Assembly (NCBI GenBank): GCA_017619275.1
Contig: JAFZSR010000083.1
Location: 1-58,314, forward strand
DNA from: Prevotella sp.
GTDB lineage: Bacteria > Bacteroidota > Bacteroidia > Bacteroidales > Bacteroidaceae
Length of the DNA stretch: 58,314 bases
Direction: 5' to 3'
Shown here piece after piece: positions 10,494 through 34,958 of this stretch. The notes beneath the pieces were generated by a model. That model was given only the letters and a program-made list of their open reading frames with translations, did no database searches and was not told the origin of the DNA. The translations under genes were made by a program, and so were the position numbers. Numbering within the stretch: the first letter of the stretch is position 1; every line of letters begins with the position of its first letter.

Positions 10494-11330
10494 ATGAAAT
10501 ATAACGTTTTTTCCCGTCTCCAAAACCACTTAATCCCCTCCCTCATTGGGAGGGGCTCGGGGGTGGGCCTTCTTGTCATGTTCTTCTTGTTGTGTGCATG
10601 CAGCAGCAGTGACGAAGATGACGACAACGACAATGGACTTGTCACCAGCAGTTCCACTTTTATGGCACAGGAGAAACCCTCATGGCAGGTAGACCAGAGC
10701 GCCAACCAGCAGAGCCCGCAGTGGACGTCGCCCGACCCGTCGCAGTATGAGAACAAGATGATTGTCATGGTGCGTCTACAAGAAGAACTGGTGCCTTTCT
10801 CTACCGACGACGACCTGATGGCTGTGATAGTAGGCAACGAGTGCCGTGCCCTCTCCACGCGTGATGGCAACGCACAAAAGGTTTACTTCGTCCTTAATGT
10901 ACATGGCAACGCCGCCGACATTTCCGAAGATTTCGTCCTGTGCTACTATAGCGGTGGCCTCAAGCAGCTCTTCATGCGCCGTGCACCGGACAACAGCTAT
11001 TTCAACGAGCGCACCTTGGGCATCGACAGCGATTTCTCGCCAGAGTTTACCGAAGGCTCCACGAAGTATCCCATCAAGACCAAGCTCACCGTCAACCTCG
11101 GCTTGATGGATAACAGGAGCATCGGCACCGAACAAGATGTTGTGGGCGTCTTTGTGGGTGACGAGTGCCGTGGAGTAGGCAAGGTGGGCAAGCCGTTCAC
11201 CGTCTTTTCCAATAGTTCAGGCGAGCAGGGCGAACTGCGCTTCTACAGCTCGGCAGAGAAAGGCGTCTTCACTGCCAACAAGAAGCTGACGCTAACAGGA
11301 GACCCCCAAACCATCACATTCGAATTTTAA
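10494..11330 (+). CDS. Lipoprotein with two copies of a module shared with the giant protein
   Basis: A 278-residue predicted lipoprotein. The lipobox LCAC gives Cys36 as the likely lipidated residue, followed by an acidic SSSDEDDDND linker. Two tandem beta modules follow, each with a D-x-hydrophobic-A/G-V-x-V-G-N/D-ECR signature (LMAVIVGNECRAL and VVGVFVGDECRGVG). Related motifs occur near the C-terminus of the upstream 3401-residue protein. It starts 67 bp after that gene and ends 11 bp before the fimbrillin-like gene, so cotranscription is likely. Residues 14-26 of the signal peptide are encoded by a GC-rich palindromic repeat (10535-10570). No shorter start would leave a working signal peptide. 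Function is unknown; a surface-complex partner of the giant protein is the simplest reading. Confidence 0.75.
   Translation: MKYNVFSRLQNHLIPSLIGRGSGVGLLVMFFLLCACSSSDEDDDNDNGLVTSSSTFMAQEKPSWQVDQSANQQSPQWTSPDPSQYENKMIVMVRLQEELVPFSTDDDLMAVIVGNECRALSTRDGNAQKVYFVLNVHGNAADISEDFVLCYYSGGLKQLFMRRAPDNSYFNERTLGIDSDFSPEFTEGSTKYPIKTKLTVNLGLMDNRSIGTEQDVVGVFVGDECRGVGKVGKPFTVFSNSSGEQGELRFYSSAEKGVFTANKKLTLTGDPQTITFEF
10535..10570 (+). repeat. GC-rich palindromic repeat (family A) inside a lipoprotein signal peptide
   Basis: CCCCTCCC and GGGAGGGG arms around a short loop, followed by a GGGGGTGGGCCT tail. It lies in frame and encodes IPSLIGRGSGVGL. Related copies occur near 24.5, 26.3, 26.8, 26.9, 27.5, 29.0, 34.6 and 58.2 kb. 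Confidence 0.8.
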
Positions 11331-24843: not shown

Positions 24844-24877
24844 GTGCGCTGGCGCACAGAAACGTGCGAAATCGCAC
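24844..24877. promoter_or_regulatory. Paired enhancer-like palindromes upstream of the response regulator gene
   Basis: GTGCG-CTGG-CGCAC (24844-24857) and GTGCG-AAAT-CGCAC (24864-24877) are perfect half-site pairs with centres 20 bp apart. The same paired arrangement precedes the permease (27704-27737) and TolC (32130-32163) genes. It is probably the binding site of the NtrC-type regulator encoded just downstream (autoregulation); that is inference. Confidence 0.7.
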
Positions 24878-24938
24878 AAATGCAGGGTGGCTGACGCTTT
24901 TGTGACCGGAAAGTAATGGAGATGTGAAGTTTTTGTCT

Positions 24939-24946
24939 TATCTTTG
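24939..24946 (+). promoter_or_regulatory. Promoter of the response regulator gene
   Basis: TATCTTTG matches TAnnTTTG. Transcription would start near 24953, almost at the first ATG (24955), which makes the ATG at 24976 a serious alternative start. The TTTGC at 24943-24947 also falls where a sigma-54 -12 element would be by the geometry of the other two enhancer sites, but the -24 element is poor. Confidence 0.5.
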
Positions 24947-24954
24947 CCATCGAA

Positions 24955-26337
24955 ATGACAAAAACCGATAGAAAGATGGAAGAAAAGAAGAAGGGTAGGG
25001 TGCTCGTTATCGACGATAACGAGGATATCCTTTTTGCACTGAACCTGCTGCTGAAACCGCTGGTGGACGACATCCGCGTGACCACGCAGCCCGAACAGAT
25101 TGACCGTTTCTACGATATGTTGCACCCCGACGTGGTGCTGCTCGACATGAATTTCCATCGCGATGCCATCAGCGGCGAGGAGGGCTTCGAGTGGCTGGAG
25201 CATATCCTGCACCGCGACGCGCAGGCGGTGGTCATCCTCATGACGGCCTACGCCGACGCCGACAAAGCAGTGCGGGCGCTGAAGAGCGGGGCAACGGATT
25301 TCATCACCAAGCCGTGGGACAACTCCAAGCTCTTGGCCACGCTCTTTGCGGGCATTGAGTTGAGCCGCGAGCGGCATAAGAATCGTTTGCTGGAGCAGCG
25401 CATGGAGGTGGCGGCCTCGCCTTTCGGGGCCACGGCGGCGCCCACCATCATTGGCGAGAGCCCCGTGATGCGGCGCGTGCTGCAGACGGTGGTGCAGGTG
25501 GCACCGACCGATGCCAACGTGCTCATCCTCGGCGAGAACGGCACGGGCAAGGACGTCATCGCCCGTCAGTTGTGCGCCCTCTCCGCGCGAGCCGCCAAGC
25601 CCTTCGTCAGCATCGACCTGGGCAGCGTGCCCGAACAGCTGTTCGAGAGCGAACTCTTTGGCTACGAGAAAGGGGCGTTTACCGATGCGCGCAAGGCGAA
25701 GGCCGGACGCATGGAGACGGCCAGCAGCGGCACGCTGTTTCTCGACGAGATTGGCAACCTGCCGCTCCCGCTGCAAGCAAAGCTGCTGGCCGCCCTGGAG
25801 CGGCGTGAGATCTCGCGCCTGGGCAGTACGCAGACGACGCCCATCGACGTGCGGCTGCTCTGTGCCACCAATGCCGATATCCATACGGCGGTGGCCGAGG
25901 GTCGTTTCCGCCAGGATTTGCTCTACCGCATCAACACCATCGAGATCACCATGCCACCACTGCGCGAGCGTGGCGAGGACATCATCCTGCTGGCCGAGCA
26001 CTTCCTCAAGACTTACGCGCGAAAATATAATAAGGAGTTGACGACGCTCAACCGCGATGCCCGTCAGCGACTGCTGCGCCACACGTGGCCGGGCAATGTG
26101 CGCGAGTTGATGCACGCCGTGGAGCGGGCGGTGCTGCTGGCCAAGGGCCCGGGTCTCTGTGCCCAGGACTTTATGCTGAAAGAGCCTTTGCGCCGCACGC
26201 AAACGCCTACTTTGAACCTGGAGCGCCTGGAACAGGAAGCCATCGAGCGCGCCATGCAGATTGCTGGCGGCAACGTCACCCGCGCTGCCGAACTGTTAGG
26301 CATCACAAGGTTTGCATTGTATAGGAAGTTGAAATAA
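24955..26337 (+). CDS. NtrC-family sigma-54-dependent response regulator
   Basis: A 460-residue transcriptional activator. The receiver domain (about 15-130) has the acidic pocket Asp20/Asp21, phospho-acceptor Asp64 in VVLLDMNF, and the ITKPWD lysine. The AAA+ domain (about 155-390) has Walker A GENGTGKD and Walker B GTLFLDEIGNLPL. The sigma-54 contact loop reads GAFTDA instead of the usual GAFTGA. A Fis-type helix-turn-helix ends the protein (AGGNVTRAAELLGITRFALYRKLK). Family members use ATP to open sigma-54 promoters from upstream enhancers. The kinase gene follows with only a repeat between. Palindromes upstream of this gene, the permease and tolC suggest it controls all of them. The start may be Met1 or Met8 (24976); the promoter position favours Met8. 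Confidence 0.92.
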   Translation: MTKTDRKMEEKKKGRVLVIDDNEDILFALNLLLKPLVDDIRVTTQPEQIDRFYDMLHPDVVLLDMNFHRDAISGEEGFEWLEHILHRDAQAVVILMTAYADADKAVRALKSGATDFITKPWDNSKLLATLFAGIELSRERHKNRLLEQRMEVAASPFGATAAPTIIGESPVMRRVLQTVVQVAPTDANVLILGENGTGKDVIARQLCALSARAAKPFVSIDLGSVPEQLFESELFGYEKGAFTDARKAKAGRMETASSGTLFLDEIGNLPLPLQAKLLAALERREISRLGSTQTTPIDVRLLCATNADIHTAVAEGRFRQDLLYRINTIEITMPPLRERGEDIILLAEHFLKTYARKYNKELTTLNRDARQRLLRHTWPGNVRELMHAVERAVLLAKGPGLCAQDFMLKEPLRRTQTPTLNLERLEQEAIERAMQIAGGNVTRAAELLGITRFALYRKLK

Positions 26338-26375
26338 AGGGACCCACCCCCAGCCCCTCCCTTCATGGAGGGGAG
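26338..26375 (-). repeat. GC-rich palindromic repeat (family A) between regulator and kinase
   Basis: ACCCACCCCCAG tail then CCCCTCCC...GGAGGGG palindrome. An in-frame ATG (26365) lies in its loop, making a 9-residue upstream extension of the kinase possible but unlikely. Confidence 0.8.
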
Positions 26376-26391
26376 TATATACATAGAATCC

Positions 26392-27699
26392 ATGGAAGAA
26401 ACAAATGAACATAAGCAAAGAATGACTACTTCCTCCCTCACAGGGAAGTCGGGAATAGGCCCTGTTTGTTGGCTCCTTTATTATCTCGTGGGGCTCGTAG
26501 TCCTTTTGGCACTCTTGGCAATCAGCATTCATGCCCACCTGCTTTGGCCATCCATCGCCTTGGCTATTGCCCTGCTGTGGCTGTGCGTTTCGCTTTATGG
26601 CCGCGTAGGCCGCTTGCTCTATGCCTACCGCGAGACGGAGCGTGAGAACGAGCGGCTGCATGCCTTGCAGGTCGAGGCCGAGCGACAGTTGCTCTACCTG
26701 CGCCAGCTGACTGAGAATGTCGACACCGCCCTCTTTGTCTGCTCCACCGACGGGCGTATCGACTGGATGAATCAGGCGGCAAAGGAAGCCCTACAGACCC
26801 TCCCCCGACCCCTCCCTGAAGGGAGGGGAATGGATAGTTCTGCCGCTGAAAACGCAATTGGCAAGTCTATATACTCCCCTCCCTACAAGGGAGGGGCCGG
26901 GGGAGGGTCTGGTCGTCTGGGTTCTTCCCTCCCTCCCCATATCCTTCAGGCCATTGCCGATCACGCCGAGGTGGTGGATGGCTGCGCCCTCTCCACCGTC
27001 ATGCTGCGTATCGACGGGCGGCGGCGCCTTGTGGTGGCCATGAAAGATGTCTCCGCGCTGATGCAACGGCAGGAGATGGAAGCGTGGCAGCAGCTCATCC
27101 GTGTGCTCACCCACGAAATCATGAACTCGCTCACGCCCATCATCTCCATCAGCGAGACGCTGAAAGCCTCACCCAGTTGGGAGAGGATGGAAGGGGCCGA
27201 GGCCTTCGCCGTCATCAACCGTCGCTGCCACGCGCTCCTCGATTTCGTGGAAAGCTATCGCCAGCTCACTCGCATCAAGACACCCGAACGGACGACCTTC
27301 CCCGTCGGCGAACTCTTTGAGCATATCACTGGACTCTATCCACAAGTCAAAACCCAAGGCGAGGGCCATTTGACGGCCGACCGTGCCCAACTGGAACAAG
27401 TGCTCATCAACCTCATCAAGAATGCCTACGAGAGTGGTGCCACCTCGGTGGAACTTTCTGTGCTTCAACTCCCCCTGCAGGGTGGGGCAGTGGGTGGGTC
27501 TTCCATTCGCGTGCAGGACAACGGCAGTGGCATGTCGCCCAATGTGCTTGCCAACGCCTTCATCCCCTTCTTCACCACCAAGCCCGCTGGCACCGGCATC
27601 GGCCTCAGCCTCTGTCGCCAAATCATCCTCAAGCACGGCGGCACCATCCGTGTGGAGAGCGAAGAAGGTCGGGGCACCACCTTCATCATACGGCTGTAA
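26392..27699 (+). CDS. Membrane sensor histidine kinase partner of the NtrC-type regulator
   Basis: Phosphorylates the adjacent response regulator. From this start the protein has 435 residues: two membrane helices (about 25-70), a coiled segment, a PAS-like domain (LTENVDTALFVCSTDGRIDWMNQAAKEAL), then the catalytic core with His241 in RVLTHEIMNSLTPI, N-box LINLIKNAYES, DNGSGM, FIPFFTTK and GTGIGLS. Three GC-rich palindromic repeats sit in frame: two form an inverted pair inside the PAS-like region (26795-26910) and one lies in the ATPase domain (27467-27502) between the N-box and DNGSGM. All motifs remain intact, so it is probably functional. The signal sensed is unknown; the two short membrane helices leave almost no periplasmic loop. 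An in-frame ATG at 26365 lies within a repeat and is less likely. Confidence 0.88.
   Translation: MEETNEHKQRMTTSSLTGKSGIGPVCWLLYYLVGLVVLLALLAISIHAHLLWPSIALAIALLWLCVSLYGRVGRLLYAYRETERENERLHALQVEAERQLLYLRQLTENVDTALFVCSTDGRIDWMNQAAKEALQTLPRPLPEGRGMDSSAAENAIGKSIYSPPYKGGAGGGSGRLGSSLPPHILQAIADHAEVVDGCALSTVMLRIDGRRRLVVAMKDVSALMQRQEMEAWQQLIRVLTHEIMNSLTPIISISETLKASPSWERMEGAEAFAVINRRCHALLDFVESYRQLTRIKTPERTTFPVGELFEHITGLYPQVKTQGEGHLTADRAQLEQVLINLIKNAYESGATSVELSVLQLPLQGGAVGGSSIRVQDNGSGMSPNVLANAFIPFFTTKPAGTGIGLSLCRQIILKHGGTIRVESEEGRGTTFIIRL
26795..26910. repeat. In-frame inverted pair of family A palindromes in the kinase gene
   Basis: A reverse copy (26795-26828) and a forward copy (26874-26910) flank a 45-bp spacer. 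The outer ends AGACCCTCCCCC and GGGGGAGGGTCT are inverted repeats of each other. Together they add about 39 residues including PRPLPEGRG and SPPYKGGAGGGSG to the kinase. Confidence 0.82.
27467..27502 (+). repeat. In-frame family A repeat in the kinase ATPase domain
   Basis: CTCCCCCTGCAGGGTGGGG palindrome with GTGGGTGGGTCTT tail, encoding QLPLQGGAVGGSS between the N-box and the DNGSGM loop. Confidence 0.7.
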
Positions 27700-27703
27700 T
27701 CCT

Positions 27704-27737
27704 GTGCACTTTCGCACGCGAGTGAGCGGGGGCGCAC
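27704..27737. promoter_or_regulatory. Paired enhancer-like palindromes upstream of the permease gene
   Basis: GTGCA-CTTT-CGCAC (27704-27717) and GAGCG-GGGG-CGCAC (27724-27737), each one mismatch from GTGCG-N4-CGCAC, with centres 20 bp apart. They lie about 90 and 110 bp upstream of the start expected from the element at 27794-27808, a typical enhancer distance. Confidence 0.68.
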
Positions 27738-27793
27738 GGTATGACAGAATAGCCCGATTTTGCATCTTGCACAGAATCAGTGCCTTGGCTGTT

Positions 27794-27808
27794 TGGCACA
27801 GTTGTTGA
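27794..27808 (+). promoter_or_regulatory. Sigma-54-like promoter of the permease gene
   Basis: TGGCAC-N5-TTGA fits the -24 element and spacing of sigma-54 promoters (TGGCAC-N5-TTGC), but the usual GC at -12 reads GA. It is 63.5 bp from the centre of the nearer palindrome. The predicted mRNA start is near 27820, just before the ATG at 27837. Confidence 0.55.
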
Positions 27809-27836
27809 TTGATAGGAAAGGAACAAAGCAAACAAA

Positions 27837-30224
27837 ATGAAACAAGCATTTCGCATCATCAGCCGCATGAAAGGCTACACGGCGCTGTCGCTGCTCGGCC
27901 TTATCATCTCGCTAAGCGGCACCGTCATCATCAGCCGCTACCTGCATCAGGAGTGGACGGTCAACCACTACATGCCCGATCTCGACCGCACCTACGTATG
28001 CTGCGTGCAATATGTAGGGGATAGCCGATGGATGACGATAGAGACCGACGACCCCAACCAGGAGTCGCATTTCATCTCGCCCGTGAAAAACCAGAGCGAC
28101 GTGGAGTGCTGGACGAACATAGCATTACGCTCCATGTACCCCCTCACACCCGAACATGGCGAAACATTCTATCCCGCTGCCATCTGTATAGATTCAACCT
28201 TCTCGCAGATATTTCCGCTGGAAGCGATGGAGGGGACGGTGGTGCTACGTGTGCCGGGCCAGTGCATCCTGAGCGAGGAACTGGCGTCACGGCTCTTTCC
28301 CGACGAGAGTGCTGTGGGAAAGACCGTCACCGTGGGCGAAGGCGACGTGAACACGGTCATGGGTGTGTTTCGCCAGCCCAGCACCAAGTCGAGCATCCGT
28401 TTCGACATCGCCAACTACGGCGACCCGGAAAGGGATTTCTATGTCCCAACCAACGTCATCTTCGGTGTAGTCAAGCTGCGTGAGGGGGCCGACGTGAATG
28501 CCTATAACGAGCGACAGCCCGAACAGCGACTGGCCATGTTCATCAACCGCCCCATGCGCTATGGTCTGAGACCCTTTACGGAGGAGCTGCAAAAGAAGTG
28601 GGACCGTCACCAGCTGGAAGGTTATGCGAGCTTCGTCCCCCATGCCTCCGCCGCGCACTTATGGATGCTGCTCTTCGTGGCTGTGCTGCTGTTGTTCGTG
28701 GGCCTGTTCAACTTCGTGAACCTATTCGCCGTGATGCGCTCGCACCGCCATCACGAGCTGTATGTGCGCCGCCTCTTCGGAGCCTCGCGCTGGGATGTCT
28801 TCTGCCAGCTCTATGCCGAGACGTTACTGCTTGCCGTGCTCACCATGATTGGCGTGTGGACAGTGGTGGAACTGACGGAGCCGCTGCTCGCCACCTATTA
28901 TAATATCGAGGTGCTGCCACAGTGGAAGTTCGACGTGGGGCTGACGCTTGGAATCGTCTTCATCTTACCTTTGATTTCCTCTATCATTCCCATTCGTCTC
29001 AGTCACCACTCCCTTTGGGAGGGGTTGGGTGTGGGCCTCCAGTTCTTCATCTCCCTCGCCCTGCTCAACGTCAGCATCTACTTTATGCGGCAGTTGAACG
29101 TGATGATGAGCGCCGACCCTGGCTTCCGCACGAAGGGACTGCTCGCGGCCGTCATCTATCCTCCATCCAACCGAGGAATGTGGACGAAGGAGGAATACGA
29201 TGCCATGTTAGAGAAGAGGCGTGGGCAGACAGAGATAGTGAAGCAGCGGCTGAAGGCCTGCCCCTACCTCAAAGGTATTGACGTAGACCTGGATTTCATC
29301 AACGACAGAAATCCCGTCAAGCTCGCCGACGGCGGCAGTATCGACATACTGTACATTACGGGCGGGGCGGCACGCATGTACGACCTGAAACTGATAGAGG
29401 GCATGATGCCCACCGCCGACAGTTTGACGATGCACGACTATTTCTGCGTGGCCAACGAGGCGGCCATCAAGGCACTGGGCATCAAAAACATCGAGACCGA
29501 CCATGTGCAGTTTGCCAATCATATCTGGTGGAATTCCCAAACCGACCGCGACATCAATCCGCCTTACCACATCGTGGGTGTGGTGCGCGATTTCAACACC
29601 GGCCGCCAGTCGGAGCCTGTGCGCCCGATGCTGCTGCTGTTCGATTCATGGCACAAAGACTATCTGTTCGACGCCTACCAGATGGAGGGTCGCAACTACC
29701 TGCTCGACGTGGTCGAAGGGCATGAGGAAGACATCATCCGCGAGCTGAAGGACATCGAGAAGGAATTATTCGGTACCACAGAACTGAAGTACCAATGGTT
29801 GGAGGACCAGCGCAAGGCGCTCTACAAGGAAGACCAGCGCACGGCGCGCATCTTCGTCACCTTCTCGCTGCTGGCCATCGCCGTCACCTGCCTCGGCGTG
29901 CTCGGCCTGATGATGTTCGACGTTCGTCGCCGCTACCGCGAGATAGCCCTTCGCAAGGTCAACGGTGCCACGTTTCGCGACATCGCCCTGCTGCTCTCGC
30001 GCCGCTACCTCATCATCTTCGGCCTTGCGGCCCTGGCCTCGCTGCCCGTCAGCCTGCTCATCATCCATCGGCTCATGGCCAGCTACACCATCTGCACGTC
30101 CTTCGCCTGGTGGATTCCGCTGCTGAGCATCGCCCTCATCCTCGCCCTCTGCGCCCTCACACTCTGGTATCAAGTATGGAAAGCCACACGCATCAAACCG
30201 TATCAAGTACTTAAAGAGAATTAG
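27837..30224 (+). CDS. ABC exporter permease, FtsX/MacB-like
   Basis: A 795-residue inner-membrane permease made of two FtsX-type halves. The first helix is near 15-38 (TALSLLGLIISLSGTVII) and is followed by a periplasmic domain. Helices lie near 278-300, 320-340, 365-385 and 395-415. A second periplasmic domain (about 420-660) follows, then a terminal FtsX core with LLAIAVTCLGVLGLMMFDVRRRYREIALRKVNGA and the last two helices. The YREIALRKVNGAT coupling motif is typical of the family. With the ATPase, TolC and HlyD/MacA-like genes it would form a tripartite exporter of a small molecule or peptide; the substrate is not predictable. A family A repeat lies in frame at 29005-29038 just before a helix. 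It has its own enhancer and promoter. Confidence 0.9.
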   Translation: MKQAFRIISRMKGYTALSLLGLIISLSGTVIISRYLHQEWTVNHYMPDLDRTYVCCVQYVGDSRWMTIETDDPNQESHFISPVKNQSDVECWTNIALRSMYPLTPEHGETFYPAAICIDSTFSQIFPLEAMEGTVVLRVPGQCILSEELASRLFPDESAVGKTVTVGEGDVNTVMGVFRQPSTKSSIRFDIANYGDPERDFYVPTNVIFGVVKLREGADVNAYNERQPEQRLAMFINRPMRYGLRPFTEELQKKWDRHQLEGYASFVPHASAAHLWMLLFVAVLLLFVGLFNFVNLFAVMRSHRHHELYVRRLFGASRWDVFCQLYAETLLLAVLTMIGVWTVVELTEPLLATYYNIEVLPQWKFDVGLTLGIVFILPLISSIIPIRLSHHSLWEGLGVGLQFFISLALLNVSIYFMRQLNVMMSADPGFRTKGLLAAVIYPPSNRGMWTKEEYDAMLEKRRGQTEIVKQRLKACPYLKGIDVDLDFINDRNPVKLADGGSIDILYITGGAARMYDLKLIEGMMPTADSLTMHDYFCVANEAAIKALGIKNIETDHVQFANHIWWNSQTDRDINPPYHIVGVVRDFNTGRQSEPVRPMLLLFDSWHKDYLFDAYQMEGRNYLLDVVEGHEEDIIRELKDIEKELFGTTELKYQWLEDQRKALYKEDQRTARIFVTFSLLAIAVTCLGVLGLMMFDVRRRYREIALRKVNGATFRDIALLLSRRYLIIFGLAALASLPVSLLIIHRLMASYTICTSFAWWIPLLSIALILALCALTLWYQVWKATRIKPYQVLKEN
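29005..29038 (+). repeat. In-frame family A repeat in the permease gene
   Basis: CACTCCCTTTGGGAGGGGTTGG core with GTGTGGGCCT tail, encoding HHSLWEGLGVGL immediately before a membrane helix. Confidence 0.65.
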
Positions 30225-30234
30225 TCGTATGGGG

Positions 30235-30408
30235 AGTTGGTCGTTTGGTTGTTTAGGAATGTTAGTAATTCCCCCAACAACCAATCTCCCAAACGACCAA
30301 ACGACCAATTCCCCAAACGACCAAACGACCAAACGACCAATTTCCCAAACGACCAAACGACCAATCTCCCAAACGACCAAACGACCAATTTCCCAAACGA
30401 CCAAATAA
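30235..30408. repeat. ACGACCAA tandem / inverted repeat tract
   Basis: Many copies of CCAAACGA with CCAATTTCCC or CCAATCTCCC interruptions fill the gap between permease and ATPase genes. A GTCGTTTGGTTGTTTAGG segment at the left end is inverted relative to the rest, so long hairpins are possible. It abuts the ATPase start codon. Confidence 0.85.
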
Positions 30409-30409
30409 A

Positions 30410-31084
30410 ATGATTAAGACCATCAACCTCCAGCGCTCCTTCTATACAGAAGAGGTGCGTACCATAGCCCTCAACGGCGTGAACATCGACATCAACGAAG
30501 GCGAGTTCGTCGCCGTCATGGGACCCAGCGGCTGCGGCAAGTCCACGCTGCTCAACATCCTCGGCCTCCTCGACGCCCCTACCGGTGGGCAGTACCTTCT
30601 GGGCGGACAAGACGTAACAACCCTCAGTGAGCCTGAGCGCGACCGTCTGCGCAAGGGCCTCATCGGCTTCGTCTTCCAGAGCTTCAACCTCATCGACGAC
30701 CTCAGCGTGGAGGAGAACATCGAGCTGCCGTTGTTGTATATGCGTCTCCCGAAGGCCGAGCGCCGCCAGCGTGTTGCCGAGGCCATGCGTCGCATGGACA
30801 TCAGCCACCGCGCCAAGCACTTCCCCCGTCAGCTCTCCGGCGGTCAGCAGCAGCGCGTAGCCATCGCCCGAGCCGTCGTCGCCCGCCCCAAGCTCATCCT
30901 CGCCGACGAGCCAACGGGTAACCTCGACTCACGCAACGGCCGCGAGGTGATGGAACTGCTCAGCCAGCTTCACCAGGAGGGGGGCACCATCGTCATGGTC
31001 ACCCACTCGCAGCGCGATGCCTCCTACGCGCAGCGCATCATCAACCTCAGCGACGGCCAGGTGGTGGCGGAGGTGGAGATGTAG
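30410..31084 (+). CDS. ABC transporter ATPase, MacB/LolD-like
   Basis: The 224-residue ATP-binding subunit that drives the FtsX-type permease encoded upstream. Motifs are all present: Walker [11 protein letters not shown]-loop FQSFNL, signature [14 protein letters not shown], Walker [13 protein letters not shown], and the switch histidine in VMVTHS. The insert after the Q-loop ([15 protein letters not shown]) is typical of LolD/MacB ATPases. The gene follows the permease after a 185-bp tract of simple repeats without a recognisable promoter, so it is probably read through from the permease transcript. Confidence 0.94.
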
Positions 31085-31162
31085 TATCTTTTTGCCTATG
31101 TTTAAGAAGATTTAACGGCCTTGGATGTGACAATTCTGCAGTTCAAGTGTATATATTTATAG

Positions 31163-31184
31163 GGGCTGGCCTCCGTGCCAGTCC
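31163..31184 (+). other. Hairpin before the Crp-like gene
   Basis: GGGCTGGC and GCCAGTCC arms around a CTCCGT loop, 23 bp upstream of the ATG. It may be a weak terminator of the ATPase transcript or a translational control hairpin. Confidence 0.35.
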
Positions 31185-31207
31185 TTCATAGTAATATGAC
31201 ATAAGAT

Positions 31208-31780
31208 ATGGAACTGAAATTCGGGTTTAACAGTATTGACCTCCAGGTGCTGCGAGCGTTCTGCGAGCGGGAGGGCGAGCGCATCGTCTATCAGAAGGGC
31301 GAGCAGATGGAGCGCGAGGACGAGCCGGCACAGTGGTTCTGCTTTGTGTTGGAGGGTTGCTTCAAATACACCGTAAGGGGCATCAGCGACGGGAAGGAGC
31401 ACATCACCTGGTTCTCGTTCGAGGGCGAGTTTGCGTGCGACTTTCCAACTTGCCTCTACGGGCGTCCGTCTATGACCACTATCGAGGCGATGCTCAATAC
31501 GCGTGTGCTTCGTGTGAGTGGCAAGCAAATGATTTCGCTGCTTTGTCAGAACATGAAGACGATGGAGCTGCGCAGCCTCATCAGCGAGCACCTGCTCGGT
31601 CAGGCCCGCGCCCGCTATCTGGATTTCCATCGCTCCACCTCCCGCGAGCGCTACGAACTGCTGCTTCGTCGTTGTCCCGGCATCGTAGAGCATCTGCCGC
31701 TGAACGCCATCGCCTCGTTCCTTAACATCACCCCCAAAACCCTCTCGATGATACGCCGCGACATCACCTACGGGCAGTAA
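31208..31780 (+). CDS. Crp/Fnr-family transcriptional regulator
   Basis: A 190-residue regulator with an N-terminal cyclic-nucleotide-binding-like beta barrel (about 20-120, containing FVLEGCFKYTVRG and KEHITWFSFEGEFACDF) and a C-terminal winged helix (PLNAIASFLNITPKTLSMIRRDI). No cysteine cluster of Fnr type is seen, and the residues that bind cAMP in Crp are not clearly present, as is usual for these Bacteroidetes proteins. It sits inside the exporter cluster between the ATPase and tolC genes on the same strand. Whether it controls the exporter or was merely inserted there cannot be told. The operator is unknown. Confidence 0.85.
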   Translation: MELKFGFNSIDLQVLRAFCEREGERIVYQKGEQMEREDEPAQWFCFVLEGCFKYTVRGISDGKEHITWFSFEGEFACDFPTCLYGRPSMTTIEAMLNTRVLRVSGKQMISLLCQNMKTMELRSLISEHLLGQARARYLDFHRSTSRERYELLLRRCPGIVEHLPLNAIASFLNITPKTLSMIRRDITYGQ

Positions 31781-31858
31781 TCCTTTACACGGGTAAAGAC
31801 TTGCGCCTCCAGCGGTCACTTTTCATACTTTACAGACGGTTTTTCCCGAAGATTGTTG

Positions 31859-31866
31859 TACTTTTG
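31859..31866 (+). promoter_or_regulatory. Promoter -7 element of a possible small RNA
   Basis: TACTTTTG matches TAnnTTTG. A terminator follows within 90 bp (31916-31948). No clear TTTG -33 box is seen. Confidence 0.45.
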
Positions 31867-31872
31867 CACTCA

Positions 31873-31948
31873 GTGAGACTATCCATAAGTCTCTCTCGTT
31901 ATGTAAGTTTAACCGGCAGCATCCGTCGGGATGACGGGTGCTGCTTTT
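31873..31948 (+). ncRNA. Candidate 76-nt terminated transcript
   Basis: From the predicted start near 31873 the RNA would have a GAGACT/AGTCTC hairpin (31875-31893), an unpaired stretch with an ATGTAA start-stop (31901-31906), and a 12-bp terminator hairpin (31916-31927 with 31933-31944) followed by TTTT. It could be a small RNA or a leader of what once followed. Nothing in the sequence names a target. Confidence 0.35.
31916..31948 (+). terminator. Intrinsic terminator
   Basis: GCAGCATCCGTC pairs with GACGGGTGCTGC (one G-U pair), loop GGGAT, followed by four T. Confidence 0.65.
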
Positions 31949-32087
31949 AGAAAAGTTTAACGGCCAACGTGCAAGATTCCCCGACGACCTTGCGGGCGAC
32001 AACATCCTTCGCTTCAAAAACTTTCCGTTCAAAAACAATGGAGTCTGGACGGAATACCAGAAGGGCGACGCGGAGCCAAATTTCTAA
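31938..32087 (+). pseudogene. Possible coding remnant or short ORF
   Basis: An open frame of 49 codons from a GTG, preceded in frame by a stop (TGA 31932-31934), encoding a plausible mixed sequence with RFPDDLAGDNILRFKNF and NGVWTEYQKGD. It has no ATG and begins inside the terminator hairpin, so it may be the 3' end of a decayed gene. I do not recognise the product. A chance open frame is also possible. Confidence 0.22.
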
Positions 32088-32129
32088 GTGTTTTTCTTTG
32101 TAGCTTTTCTCGCATACGCACAGAAGGAT

Positions 32130-32163
32130 GTGCGGATGTGCACAGACGCGTGCGGATATGCAC
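32130..32163. promoter_or_regulatory. Paired enhancer-like palindromes upstream of the tolC-like gene
   Basis: GTGCG-GATG-TGCAC (32130-32143) and GTGCG-GATA-TGCAC (32150-32163), centres 20 bp apart, as in the two other pairs. A weaker third site (TCTCG-CATA-CGCAC, 32108-32121) lies 22 bp further upstream. Confidence 0.7.
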
Positions 32164-32218
32164 GGGAGGCGGGGAAAGGGAATGCAACATATTGCAGGGA
32201 ATCAGTGAGATAGGCGTT

Positions 32219-32233
32219 TGGCATGGATTTTGA
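32219..32233 (+). promoter_or_regulatory. Sigma-54-like promoter of the tolC-like gene
   Basis: TGGCAT-N5-TTGA, 62.5 bp after the nearer palindrome centre, nearly the same geometry and the same GC-to-GA change at -12 as before the permease gene. Confidence 0.55.
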
Positions 32234-32263: not shown

Positions 32264-33688
32264 ATGAACGCCAGGAAGATTCTTCTGATAATTGTTGGCT
32301 CGGTCGTGACGGCGGCAAAGGCCCAGACCGACTCGTTGCGGCTGACGCTCGGCGAGGCGATAGCGCTGGCGCAACAGCAGTCGAGCGACGCGCTGGCGGC
32401 ACGCCACTCGTTGGAGGCGGCGGAGTGGAGCTACCGCTATCATAAAGCCAACTTCCTGCCGTCGGTGACGCTGAGCAGCTCGCCCTCGCTGAACCGACAA
32501 CTGAACAGCATCACGCAGCCCGATGGTACCAATGTTTTTGTGCGGCAGAACCAGCTGAGTTCCGACCTCGCGCTGAGCATCTCGCAGAACGTGACGCTGA
32601 CTGGCGGCACCTTGTTCGTGCGCAACAACCTGCAGCGAATCGACGAGTTTGAACAGCGGACACACGGCTACAGCAGCGTGCCCTTCTCCATCGGTTACCA
32701 GCAGAACCTCTTTGGCCATAACAGCTTGCGATGGGCACGACGCACGGAGCCACTGCGCTATCGGCTCGCCCGCAAGCAGTATGCGGAGACGATGGAGCTG
32801 GTGGCCTCGCGTACGAGTACTTATTTCTTTATGCTGGCCGCAGCGCAGACCGACCTGGAGATTGCGCAGCAGAATTTCGCTGTGAGCGATACGCTGCTCA
32901 GCTACGCCCGTCGGCGCTACGAGCGGGGCAGCATCACGGAGAACGAGATGTTGCAGTTGGAAGTGGGCAAACTGACGGAGGAGACGAACCGCCTGAATGC
33001 CGAGGCGGAGGTGGAGGACGCCATGCAGACGCTGCGCTCCTACCTCGGCATCAAGACGCCGGTGGCGATAGCCGTCGTGCCCGACACGCTCATCAACCAC
33101 GACACAGTGGACGCCGACGAGGCGCTGCAGTTGGCCTTGGCGAACAACCCCGACCCTGAGCAGTTGCGGTTGAACGTCATGGAAAGCGAGAGCGCGCTGT
33201 CGTCGGCCAAGGCCAATCGCGGCCTCAAGGCCGACCTCTACATGCAGTTCGGCCTCTCGCAAAAGGGCACCACGCTGAAGGAGGCTTTCACGCAACCGCT
33301 GAACCAGCAGTATGTGAGCCTGACGTTGTCGTTGCCCCTGCTAGACTGGGGGCGCGGCAAGGGGCAGGTGCGCGTTGCGAAGTCGCGACTGGAGCTGACG
33401 CAGACGCAGAGCGAACAGGCCATGCAGGACTTCCAGCTGAACGTGCAGAAGATGGTGCGGCAGTACAACTTGCAGGCCCATCGCGTCGGCATCGCTGCGC
33501 GCACTCGCGAGACGGCCTTGCGCCGATACGAGGTGGCGCGATGGCTCTATCTGCAAGGCCGCACCAGTCTGCTGGAGTTCAACGCCAGCATCAGCGAGAA
33601 GGACAATGCCCAACGCGCCTTCATCGCCGCCCTGCAGACCTACTGGAGTCTGTACTATGGATTGAGAAGTCTCACACTAACCCCTTAA
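32264..33688 (+). CDS. TolC-family outer-membrane efflux protein
   Basis: A 474-residue outer-membrane channel for the exporter. It has a signal peptide (MNARKILLIIVGSVVTAAKA) and two repeated halves with long coiled helices. The family pattern is visible in LRLTLGEAIALAQQQSSDALAARHSLEAAEWSYRYHKANFLPSVTLSSSPSLN, in GYQQNLFGHNSLRWAR, and in the second half LSLPLLDWGRGKGQVRVAKSRLELTQTQ and LQGRTSLLEFNASISEKDNAQRAFIAALQTYWSLYYGLRSLTL. Length is normal. The adaptor gene starts 4 bp downstream. The enhancer and sigma-54-like promoter upstream place it under the NtrC-type regulator together with the permease. Confidence 0.92.
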   Translation: MNARKILLIIVGSVVTAAKAQTDSLRLTLGEAIALAQQQSSDALAARHSLEAAEWSYRYHKANFLPSVTLSSSPSLNRQLNSITQPDGTNVFVRQNQLSSDLALSISQNVTLTGGTLFVRNNLQRIDEFEQRTHGYSSVPFSIGYQQNLFGHNSLRWARRTEPLRYRLARKQYAETMELVASRTSTYFFMLAAAQTDLEIAQQNFAVSDTLLSYARRRYERGSITENEMLQLEVGKLTEETNRLNAEAEVEDAMQTLRSYLGIKTPVAIAVVPDTLINHDTVDADEALQLALANNPDPEQLRLNVMESESALSSAKANRGLKADLYMQFGLSQKGTTLKEAFTQPLNQQYVSLTLSLPLLDWGRGKGQVRVAKSRLELTQTQSEQAMQDFQLNVQKMVRQYNLQAHRVGIAARTRETALRRYEVARWLYLQGRTSLLEFNASISEKDNAQRAFIAALQTYWSLYYGLRSLTLTP

Positions 33689-33692
33689 GAAG

Positions 33693-34958
33693 ATGGATAT
33701 AAAGTTACCAAAGCGACCGTGGTACGTGAAGTACCGCATGTATATCATCGCCGGGGCGATTCTCGTCGGCCTGATGGTTTATGCCGTGGTGCTGCAACTG
33801 GGCCCTCGCACGCTGAAGGTGGAGATAACCGATGAGCAGGTGGCGGAGGTCACCGAGGGTGACTTCATGGAGTACATCGATGTGAACGGTGTGGTGAGCC
33901 CCGCGAAGACCATGCGCGTGAACGCCCAGGAAGGGGGCACGGTGGAGCGCATCTGCTGCCACAACGGCGACCTGTTGCAGCGCGGCGACACCATTCTCGT
34001 CCTTTCGAATCCGAAGGTGATGGAGGAGATGGCAGCGGAACGGCAGAGCTACGAGTTGCAACAAATGCAGCACCGCCAGCAACTCATTGAGATGCACCAA
34101 AAGAGCATCACGCTGCGCAGCCAGGCTCTTCAGGCAGAATTTGAACTGAAGAAGATAGGCAAGGACTTTGAGTTGGCCGAGGAGGAAGCACGCATGGGCA
34201 TCAAGAGCCAGGCGCAGCTGGAGGTGGCACGCGATGAATACGAATACAACCGCCGCCGTACGCTGTTGAACCTGGAGAGCCTGCATCAGGATTCGGTGCT
34301 GAACGTACTGGGCCGACAACTGATTCAACAACAAATGGCTATGGAGGCCCGGAAACTGGAAAACAGCAATCGGCGTCGCGCCGCACTCGCCATCCTGGCC
34401 CCTGTCGACGGACAGATTAGCAGCCTCAACACCACCATTGGCGCCCAGGTGACGGCGGGCGAGCAGGTGGGAGAGATCGGGGTGCTGACAAACTACATTC
34501 TGAAGGCTCGCCTGAACGAATACTATATCGACCGCATCCAGCCCGGTCTGCCCTCCACTGCGGTGCTGAAGGGCCGTCGCTATGGCTTTGAGGTCAGCCG
34601 CATCACGCCTCAGGTGCAGGAGCATAGCTTCGCTGTGGAGCTCAGGCCCACTCCCGACCCCGCACAAAGGGGAGGGGAGGAGTGGCGCTTAGGCCAAACA
34701 CTTCACCTGCAAATAGAACTTGGAAAGCCCGAGCGACGACTTGTCATCCCTCGAGGCAGTTTCTACGCCCAAACCAGCGGACAATGGATCATGCTGGTGG
34801 ATGAGAAGGAGCGCAGCGCCCGTCGCGTTCCCATCAAACTGGGAAGGCAGAACACAGAATATTATGAAGTGATTGATGGCCTCCATGCCGGCGACCGCGT
34901 CCTCGTCAGTGGCTACGAGGCCTTCGGCGACGCCGAGGTTGTGAAATGGAGCAAGTAG
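33693..34958 (+). CDS. Periplasmic adaptor (HlyD/MacA-like membrane fusion protein)
   Basis: A 421-residue adaptor linking the inner-membrane permease with the TolC channel. One N-terminal membrane helix (about 11-32, YIIAGAILVGLMVYAVVLQL) is followed by a beta strand and lipoyl half (GVVSPAKTMRVNAQEGGTVERICCHNGDLLQRGDTILVLSNP), a coiled hairpin (about 115-225), the second lipoyl half (LAPVDGQISSLNTTIGAQVTAGEQVGEIG), a beta-barrel domain and a C-terminal membrane-proximal domain. A family A repeat is in frame at 34644-34678 in the beta-barrel region (RPTPDPAQRGGEE). The gene begins 4 bp after the tolC-like gene, so translation is coupled. No terminator was seen before the aromatic operon promoter. 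Confidence 0.9.
   Translation: MDIKLPKRPWYVKYRMYIIAGAILVGLMVYAVVLQLGPRTLKVEITDEQVAEVTEGDFMEYIDVNGVVSPAKTMRVNAQEGGTVERICCHNGDLLQRGDTILVLSNPKVMEEMAAERQSYELQQMQHRQQLIEMHQKSITLRSQALQAEFELKKIGKDFELAEEEARMGIKSQAQLEVARDEYEYNRRRTLLNLESLHQDSVLNVLGRQLIQQQMAMEARKLENSNRRRAALAILAPVDGQISSLNTTIGAQVTAGEQVGEIGVLTNYILKARLNEYYIDRIQPGLPSTAVLKGRRYGFEVSRITPQVQEHSFAVELRPTPDPAQRGGEEWRLGQTLHLQIELGKPERRLVIPRGSFYAQTSGQWIMLVDEKERSARRVPIKLGRQNTEYYEVIDGLHAGDRVLVSGYEAFGDAEVVKWSK
34644..34678 (-). repeat. In-frame family A repeat in the adaptor gene
   Basis: AGGCCCACTCCCGACCCC tail followed by a degraded palindrome ending GGGGAGGGG. It encodes RPTPDPAQRGGEE. Confidence 0.65.

Follow-up and report, generated by a model that had tools for sequence, protein, structure and literature searches.

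Paired 14-bp palindromes precede three units of a Prevotella exporter cluster and are candidate binding sites of its own NtrC-type regulator

Results

In a 58,314-nucleotide stretch of Prevotella sp. DNA (the window), three pairs of 14-bp palindromes of the form GTGCR-N4-YGCAC precede genes of one exporter cluster, namely those for the NtrC-type regulator, the permease, and TolC (Table 1). They are very probably sites at which the cluster's own regulator would bind and, through predicted sigma-54 promoters, activate the permease and TolC units. The original prediction had described six palindromes arranged as three pairs, with centres exactly 20 bp apart, in front of these genes; the coordinates and the spacing were both found again as described. 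The observation is real and conserved. Five of the six sites match the palindrome without a mismatch and the sixth has a single one at 27724 (GAGC for GTGC), while across copies the palindrome arms are kept and the four inner bases vary. An alternative that takes the central part of each pair (GCAC-N6/7-GTGC) for a single NtrC-like site was rejected because the 14-bp palindrome is constant and the gap between the palindromes varies between 6 and 7. A degenerate third palindrome lies at 32110-32129, a further 20 bp upstream of pair 3, and has 4 mismatches when paired with the site at 32130.

Table 1. Palindrome pairs, promoter elements, and genes of the exporter cluster, in positions of the window
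Feature	Position	Strand	Remarks
Palindrome pair 1, before the regulator gene	24844-24857/24864-24877	+	centres 24850.5/24870.5; both sites 0 mismatches
TATCTTTG, match to the Bacteroidales housekeeping -7 element TAnnTTTG	24939..24946	+	68.5 bp from the near centre of pair 1 to the element start
NtrC-type response regulator	24955..26337	+	receiver, Sigma54_activat, HTH_8; in-frame ATG also at 24976
Histidine kinase	26365..27699	+	HATPase_c above cut-off; HisKA and PAS_8 below cut-off
Palindrome pair 2, before the permease gene	27704-27717/27724-27737	+	centres 27710.5/27730.5; near site begins GAGC
Predicted sigma-54-like -24/-12 element TTGGCACAGTTGTTGA	27793..27808	+	before the permease gene
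FtsX / MacB_PCD permease	27837..30224	+	Pfam match
ABC transporter ATPase, separate gene	30410..31084	+	Pfam match
Palindrome pair 3, before the TolC gene	32130-32143/32150-32163	+	centres 32136.5/32156.5
Predicted sigma-54-like -24/-12 element TTGGCATGGATTTTGA	32218..32233	+	before the TolC gene
TolC-type outer membrane efflux protein (OEP)	32264..33688	+	OEP above cut-off
HlyD-type periplasmic adaptor	33693..34958	+	HlyD_3 above cut-off

On the + strand, the cluster runs from the NtrC-type regulator through a histidine kinase, a permease, an ABC ATPase, a cNMP-binding (Crp-like) gene, and a TolC-type OEP to an HlyD adaptor. The regulator chain matches PF00072, PF00158, and PF02954, all above cut-off, and its AAA+ sigma-54 contact motif reads GAFTDA, not GAFTGA; GAFTDA is likewise found in most of the relatives listed, and GAFTGA occurs in three close orthologs (L027, L113, and L132). 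The Crp-like gene (31208-31780), located between the ATPase and TolC genes, had only one partial 50% match (L114) among 17 relative loci and is thus no regular part of the cluster. Between the permease and ATPase genes there is a tandem array (30276-30405) comprising 5.1 copies of 24-bp AACGACCAATCTCCCAAACGACCA units, and three relative loci (L109, L112, and L113) have two tandem permease genes where the window has one. The kinase gene contains two copies of a CCCTCCC..GGGAGGG inverted repeat (at 26810 and 26877, within 26790-26930), which is also present at 10536 and 24596; read in frame, the two copies in the kinase gene yield a stretch rich in proline and glycine, located between the PAS-like part and the HisKA part. 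By eye, the kinase N-termini resemble two membrane helices with a very short loop, a reading taken from the 7 of 10 entries that were in frame, with the 3 out-of-frame entries dropped and the hydropathy script having given merged stretches.

In the window, single palindromes (≤1 mismatch) do not exceed chance, with 11 found against 14.16 expected and 85 of 100 shuffles reaching 11; thus, it is the pairing that carries the signal. A genome-wide scan did not turn up many unrelated pairs either, as the assembly of origin contains exactly three at ≤3 mismatches, all in the exporter cluster, and none for a control in which the pattern is read backwards. It should be noted that this assembly (3,590,703 bases in 127 contigs) is 85% complete and that the missing sequence could hold another pair. 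A search of phage records returned one short match of 59 bp.

Among 299 same-genus genomes, the pair was matched in 23 at ≤2 mismatches and in 10 at ≤1 mismatch, and the backwards control in 4 at ≤2 mismatches. Nine of the 299 encode a close ortholog of the regulator (89-100% identity, from a search at E 1e-110 that scored five candidates per genome), and a pair at ≤1 mismatch was present in 9/9 of these carriers vs 1/290 of the other same-genus genomes. The sole non-carrier with such a pair (G067) has no exporter gene near its match (L020), and the remaining 13 genomes match at 2 mismatches only and are without a close regulator ortholog. In two of the nine close carriers, G246 (L113) and G244 (L132), no pair stands before the regulator. 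Five more same-genus genomes encode a regulator ortholog of 57-59% identity. In four of them (L167, L168, L170, and L171), TolC is preceded by an exact pair spaced at 21 bp; the fifth, represented by a 6.3-kb contig (L169), has no pair. In 393 Bacteroidales genomes, the exact pair (spacing 20 or 21) occurred at 13 places in 8 genomes, ten of which are at regulator, permease, TolC, or HlyD-ATPase genes (two of these ten lying in the window), while the other three are tandem repeat arrays in two genomes (G450 and G493). At four of these ten places (L155, L156, L157, and L164), the genes behind the pair initially gave no match or a weak one, and by Pfam the downstream frames are FtsX-type permeases. 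Named relatives with the pair include two Bacteroidaceae metagenome assemblies (L026 and L027), Bacteroides (L028 and L029), Parabacteroides (L030) and Odoribacter (L033), each of these last two with 1 mismatch, and L031 with 2 mismatches. The pairs do recur before orthologous genes in relatives, and they are kept down to about 50-60% regulator identity.

According to the original prediction, a TGGCA element starts 63.5 bp (permease) and 62.5 bp (TolC) after the nearer palindrome centre, and we obtained the same values upon re-measurement. With the pattern TGG[CT]A[CT]-N5-[TAC]TG, a sigma-54 element was found downstream of 24 of the 26 pairs that precede non-regulator genes, and in 22 of these 24 promoters the distance from the near centre to TGGCA was 61.5-64.5 bp: 63.5 bp in 14, 62.5 bp in four, and 64.5 bp and 61.5 bp in two each, with 71.5 bp and 70.5 bp occurring once each. 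Five further rows, which repeat these pairs in a shifted reading or match on the opposite strand, were not counted. Pump-gene pairs in L137 and L164 lacked an element by the pattern used; by eye, the L164 promoter has a TTGACAC variant and L137 has none. The usual -12 form of sigma-54 promoters is TTGC; TTGA takes its place in both promoters of the window and in 8 of the 10 permease promoters of close relatives. In 10/10 close-relative permease promoters, the near palindrome begins with GAGC and the far one with GTGC, and from this difference the near site of the permease pairs may be the weaker of the two. Many of the same promoters have, by eye, an (A/T)ATCA(A/G) block roughly 15-30 bp before the -24 element (e.g. 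window 27778-27783), which we take to resemble the IHF consensus.

The regulator gene differs in its predicted promoter. We examined 21 regulator upstream regions, the window included, and found a pair in 14 and none in seven (L113 and L132-L137). By pattern search, 0/14 pair-bearing regions contained a sigma-54 element, and all 14 contained TAnnTTTG, the Bacteroidales housekeeping -7 consensus in the accessible part of PMC7366714; a sigma-54 promoter was consequently rejected for the regulator, which itself appears to have a housekeeping promoter. The distance from the near centre to the start of TAnnTTTG was 78.5 bp in seven regions, 67.5-68.5 bp in two (L111 and the window), about one helical turn shorter, and 29.5-30.5 bp in five. 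In four of the latter five, an exporter gene diverges from the regulator gene with the pair in between, TolC in L028, L029, and L033 and the permease in L158, and a sigma-54 element is found on the divergent exporter side in L028, L029, and L158. If transcription starts ~11 bp after TAnnTTTG begins, the near site would be located near -80, -90, or -42. Ordinary activators act from positions such as these, and a pair at -42 could also block polymerase.

Which protein reads the pair was approached through the recognition helix of the regulators. Among 113 loci with a regulator relative, a pair (≤2 mismatches) was present in 21 of the 23 with the helix R[FY]ALYRK and in 1 of the 90 with other helices (L174, helix RYSLYRK). 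The corresponding Fisher P of 1.6e-19 overstates the case, given that the helix class was defined with the sequences already in view, that the loci share descent, and that flanks are short for some of the 90. Three loci (L172, L174, and L175) were brought in by the pair itself, and without them the counts are 19/21 vs 0/89. Both misses within the helix class are short loci, namely L169 and L132, the latter with a pair on another contig of its genome. The genome of origin has one sigma-54 gene (one PF04552 match, E 1.7e-52) and six PF00158 matches, two of which are full length, the other four being weak and partial (21.8 to 35.1 bits) yet over the cut-off. One full-length activator is the regulator of the window; the other, encoded on contig 18, is 406 aa long and has AAA+ and HTH_8 domains and no receiver match.

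Some regulators with other helices are accompanied by palindromes of different sequence: GTCTAA-N3-TTAGAC occurs twice at 22 bp in L056, and GTAAAG-N3-CTTTAC occurs twice at 22 bp in L066. In the 393 genomes, paired GTAAAG-N3-CTTTAC (gap 4 to 12) occurred at six places in three genomes with within-pair spacings of 19 to 22, and at 6/6 a sigma-54 element stands 62-64 bp from the near centre. Three of the six loci gave a weak permease match (21-24% identity), and the other three gave no match to the window's exporter proteins within 3 kb. An exact match to paired GTCTAA-N3-TTAGAC was found in 0/393 genomes; the fixed distance thus applies to two codes and a handful of isolated cases, and it cannot yet be extended to all regulators. 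When the regions upstream of 61 regulators were searched blindly for palindrome pairs, 15 scored ≥16 vs 5/244 shuffles; GTGC cases are among the 15.

Discussion

That the pairs are the regulator's enhancers at the predicted permease and TolC sigma-54 promoters is supported by their uniqueness in the assembly, their conservation, their near-constant distance to the predicted promoters, and the way they track the regulator and its recognition helix. Several observations speak against it: the two outlying distances of 70.5 and 71.5 bp, the two pump-gene pairs with no element by the pattern, the TTGA form of the -12 part, the missing pair before the regulator in two close carriers, the GAFTDA motif, and the choice of the helix class after the fact among loci of common descent. 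In the mechanism that we favor, the kinase would phosphorylate the regulator, which would then bind as two neighbouring dimers, occupying both 14-bp palindromes two helical turns apart, at about -90 and -110 provided that -24/-12 is assigned correctly. The AAA+ ring assembled by the regulator would subsequently open sigma-54 polymerase at the promoters of the permease-ATPase and TolC-HlyD units. Expression of the regulator and kinase would depend on a predicted housekeeping promoter (TAnnTTTG), and the pair in front of them would serve autoregulation of either sign.

The original prediction had gone further in proposing a single self-regulated sigma-54 module, which is supported for the permease and TolC units but not for the regulator-kinase unit. 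A version in which all three units, the regulator and kinase included, are sigma-54 transcripts of one self-activating module could appeal to the same kind of pair preceding the regulator both here and in 13 further upstream regions, and yet it is quite improbable given that the pattern search detected no sigma-54 element in any of these 14 and that all have TAnnTTTG at preferred distances from the pair. We judge it quite improbable that some other DNA-binding protein, such as a second sigma-54 activator, reads the pairs in place of the cluster regulator. The genome does encode a second full-length activator with its own HTH_8 domain, but that protein is present in 115/120 genus genomes and cannot explain such restricted pairs, and control by this second enhancer-binding protein was rejected on that ground. 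The pairs follow the cluster regulator, and their letters are tracked by its recognition helix.

The least probable explanation is that the pairs are chance occurrences or a spreading repeat without function. Single sites at chance level in the window, tandem arrays in two of the eight order-level genomes with the pattern, and the 13 genus genomes that match at 2 mismatches without a close ortholog (the backwards control matching in 4) would all be compatible with this explanation. Against it, three pairs fall in one cluster with none elsewhere in the assembly at ≤3 mismatches, the inner bases differ between copies, and conservation before orthologs reaches down to about 50-60% regulator identity; chance was rejected on scans of the window, the own assembly, and the 393 genomes.

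With binding by the cluster regulator as the preferred reading, we tentatively suggest, with more doubt than confidence, a joint reading that extends beyond this cluster. Bacteroidales sigma-54 activators would employ a fixed ruler of two dimers about two turns apart and 61.5-64.5 bp from the -24 element, whatever the letters, such that the enhancer, far from being distance-tolerant, would be built rigidly into the promoter. At a similar distance from the transcription start (near -80 or -90), this pair would also govern the activator's own housekeeping promoter, placing one activator on two polymerase classes, and the kinase would read the pump itself. If true, this would provide a readable regulatory code for a Bacteroidales export system, in which the letters name the regulator class and the ruler finds the promoter, and regulons would become callable from sequence. 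It would also make two questions testable, namely whether sigma-54 enhancers are distance-locked in Bacteroidales and whether an enhancer-binding protein acts on a housekeeping-type promoter as well. Specialists may be surprised by a fixed distance between enhancer and promoter and by a single pair serving promoters of two classes.

The nearest solved relatives of the regulator by sequence are NtrC1 (4l4u/1ny5), NtrC4 (3dzd), and ZraR (1ojl). Like other NtrC-family bacterial enhancer-binding proteins, it combines a receiver, an AAA+ sigma-54 interaction domain, and a Fis-type HTH, and the palindromic sites lie upstream of -24/-12. In the E. coli NtrC site, the half-sites come in the reverse order, GCAC..GTGC. 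What differs from the family here is the use of two 14-bp GTGC..GCAC palindromes 20-21 bp apart at a nearly constant 61.5-64.5 bp from -24; in the accessible part of a review, enhancer sites are placed ~100-150 bp upstream and act with looping (PMC7057263). Sigma-54 control of FtsX-like/COG0577 ABC permeases in Bacteroidia is not new, as it has already been predicted, and called first evidence, in the portion of PMC12316311 available to us, which concerns the same permease kind, promoter class, and bacterial class as this cluster. A term search of the main text of that paper gave no hit for "upstream activating" or "UAS" and one general passage for "binding site", and no enhancer code, geometry, or regulator assignment was seen in that portion. 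Judging from titles and the beginnings of abstracts, with most subscription journals outside the coverage, no paper was recognised that describes the enhancer code, its fixed geometry, or the use of one pair at two promoters.

Two known types of exporter module are reminiscent of the cluster. It shares with MacAB-TolC tripartite exporters a MacB_PCD/FtsX permease, an ABC ATPase, an HlyD-type adaptor, and a TolC-type channel in one cluster. MacB joins ATPase and permease in one chain, whereas here they are separate genes, the permease having FtsX and MacB_PCD only and ABC_tran residing in the next gene. With Bce-type modules, the cluster has in common an FtsX-type ABC permease beside a kinase with, by eye, two membrane helices and a very short loop. 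Those modules rely upon an OmpR-type regulator, and their short-loop kinase is without an outside sensor domain and receives its signal from the transporter. The present cluster instead has an NtrC-type regulator with sigma-54 as well as a TolC path, and we speculate that, as in Bce-type modules, the pump itself could be the sensor.
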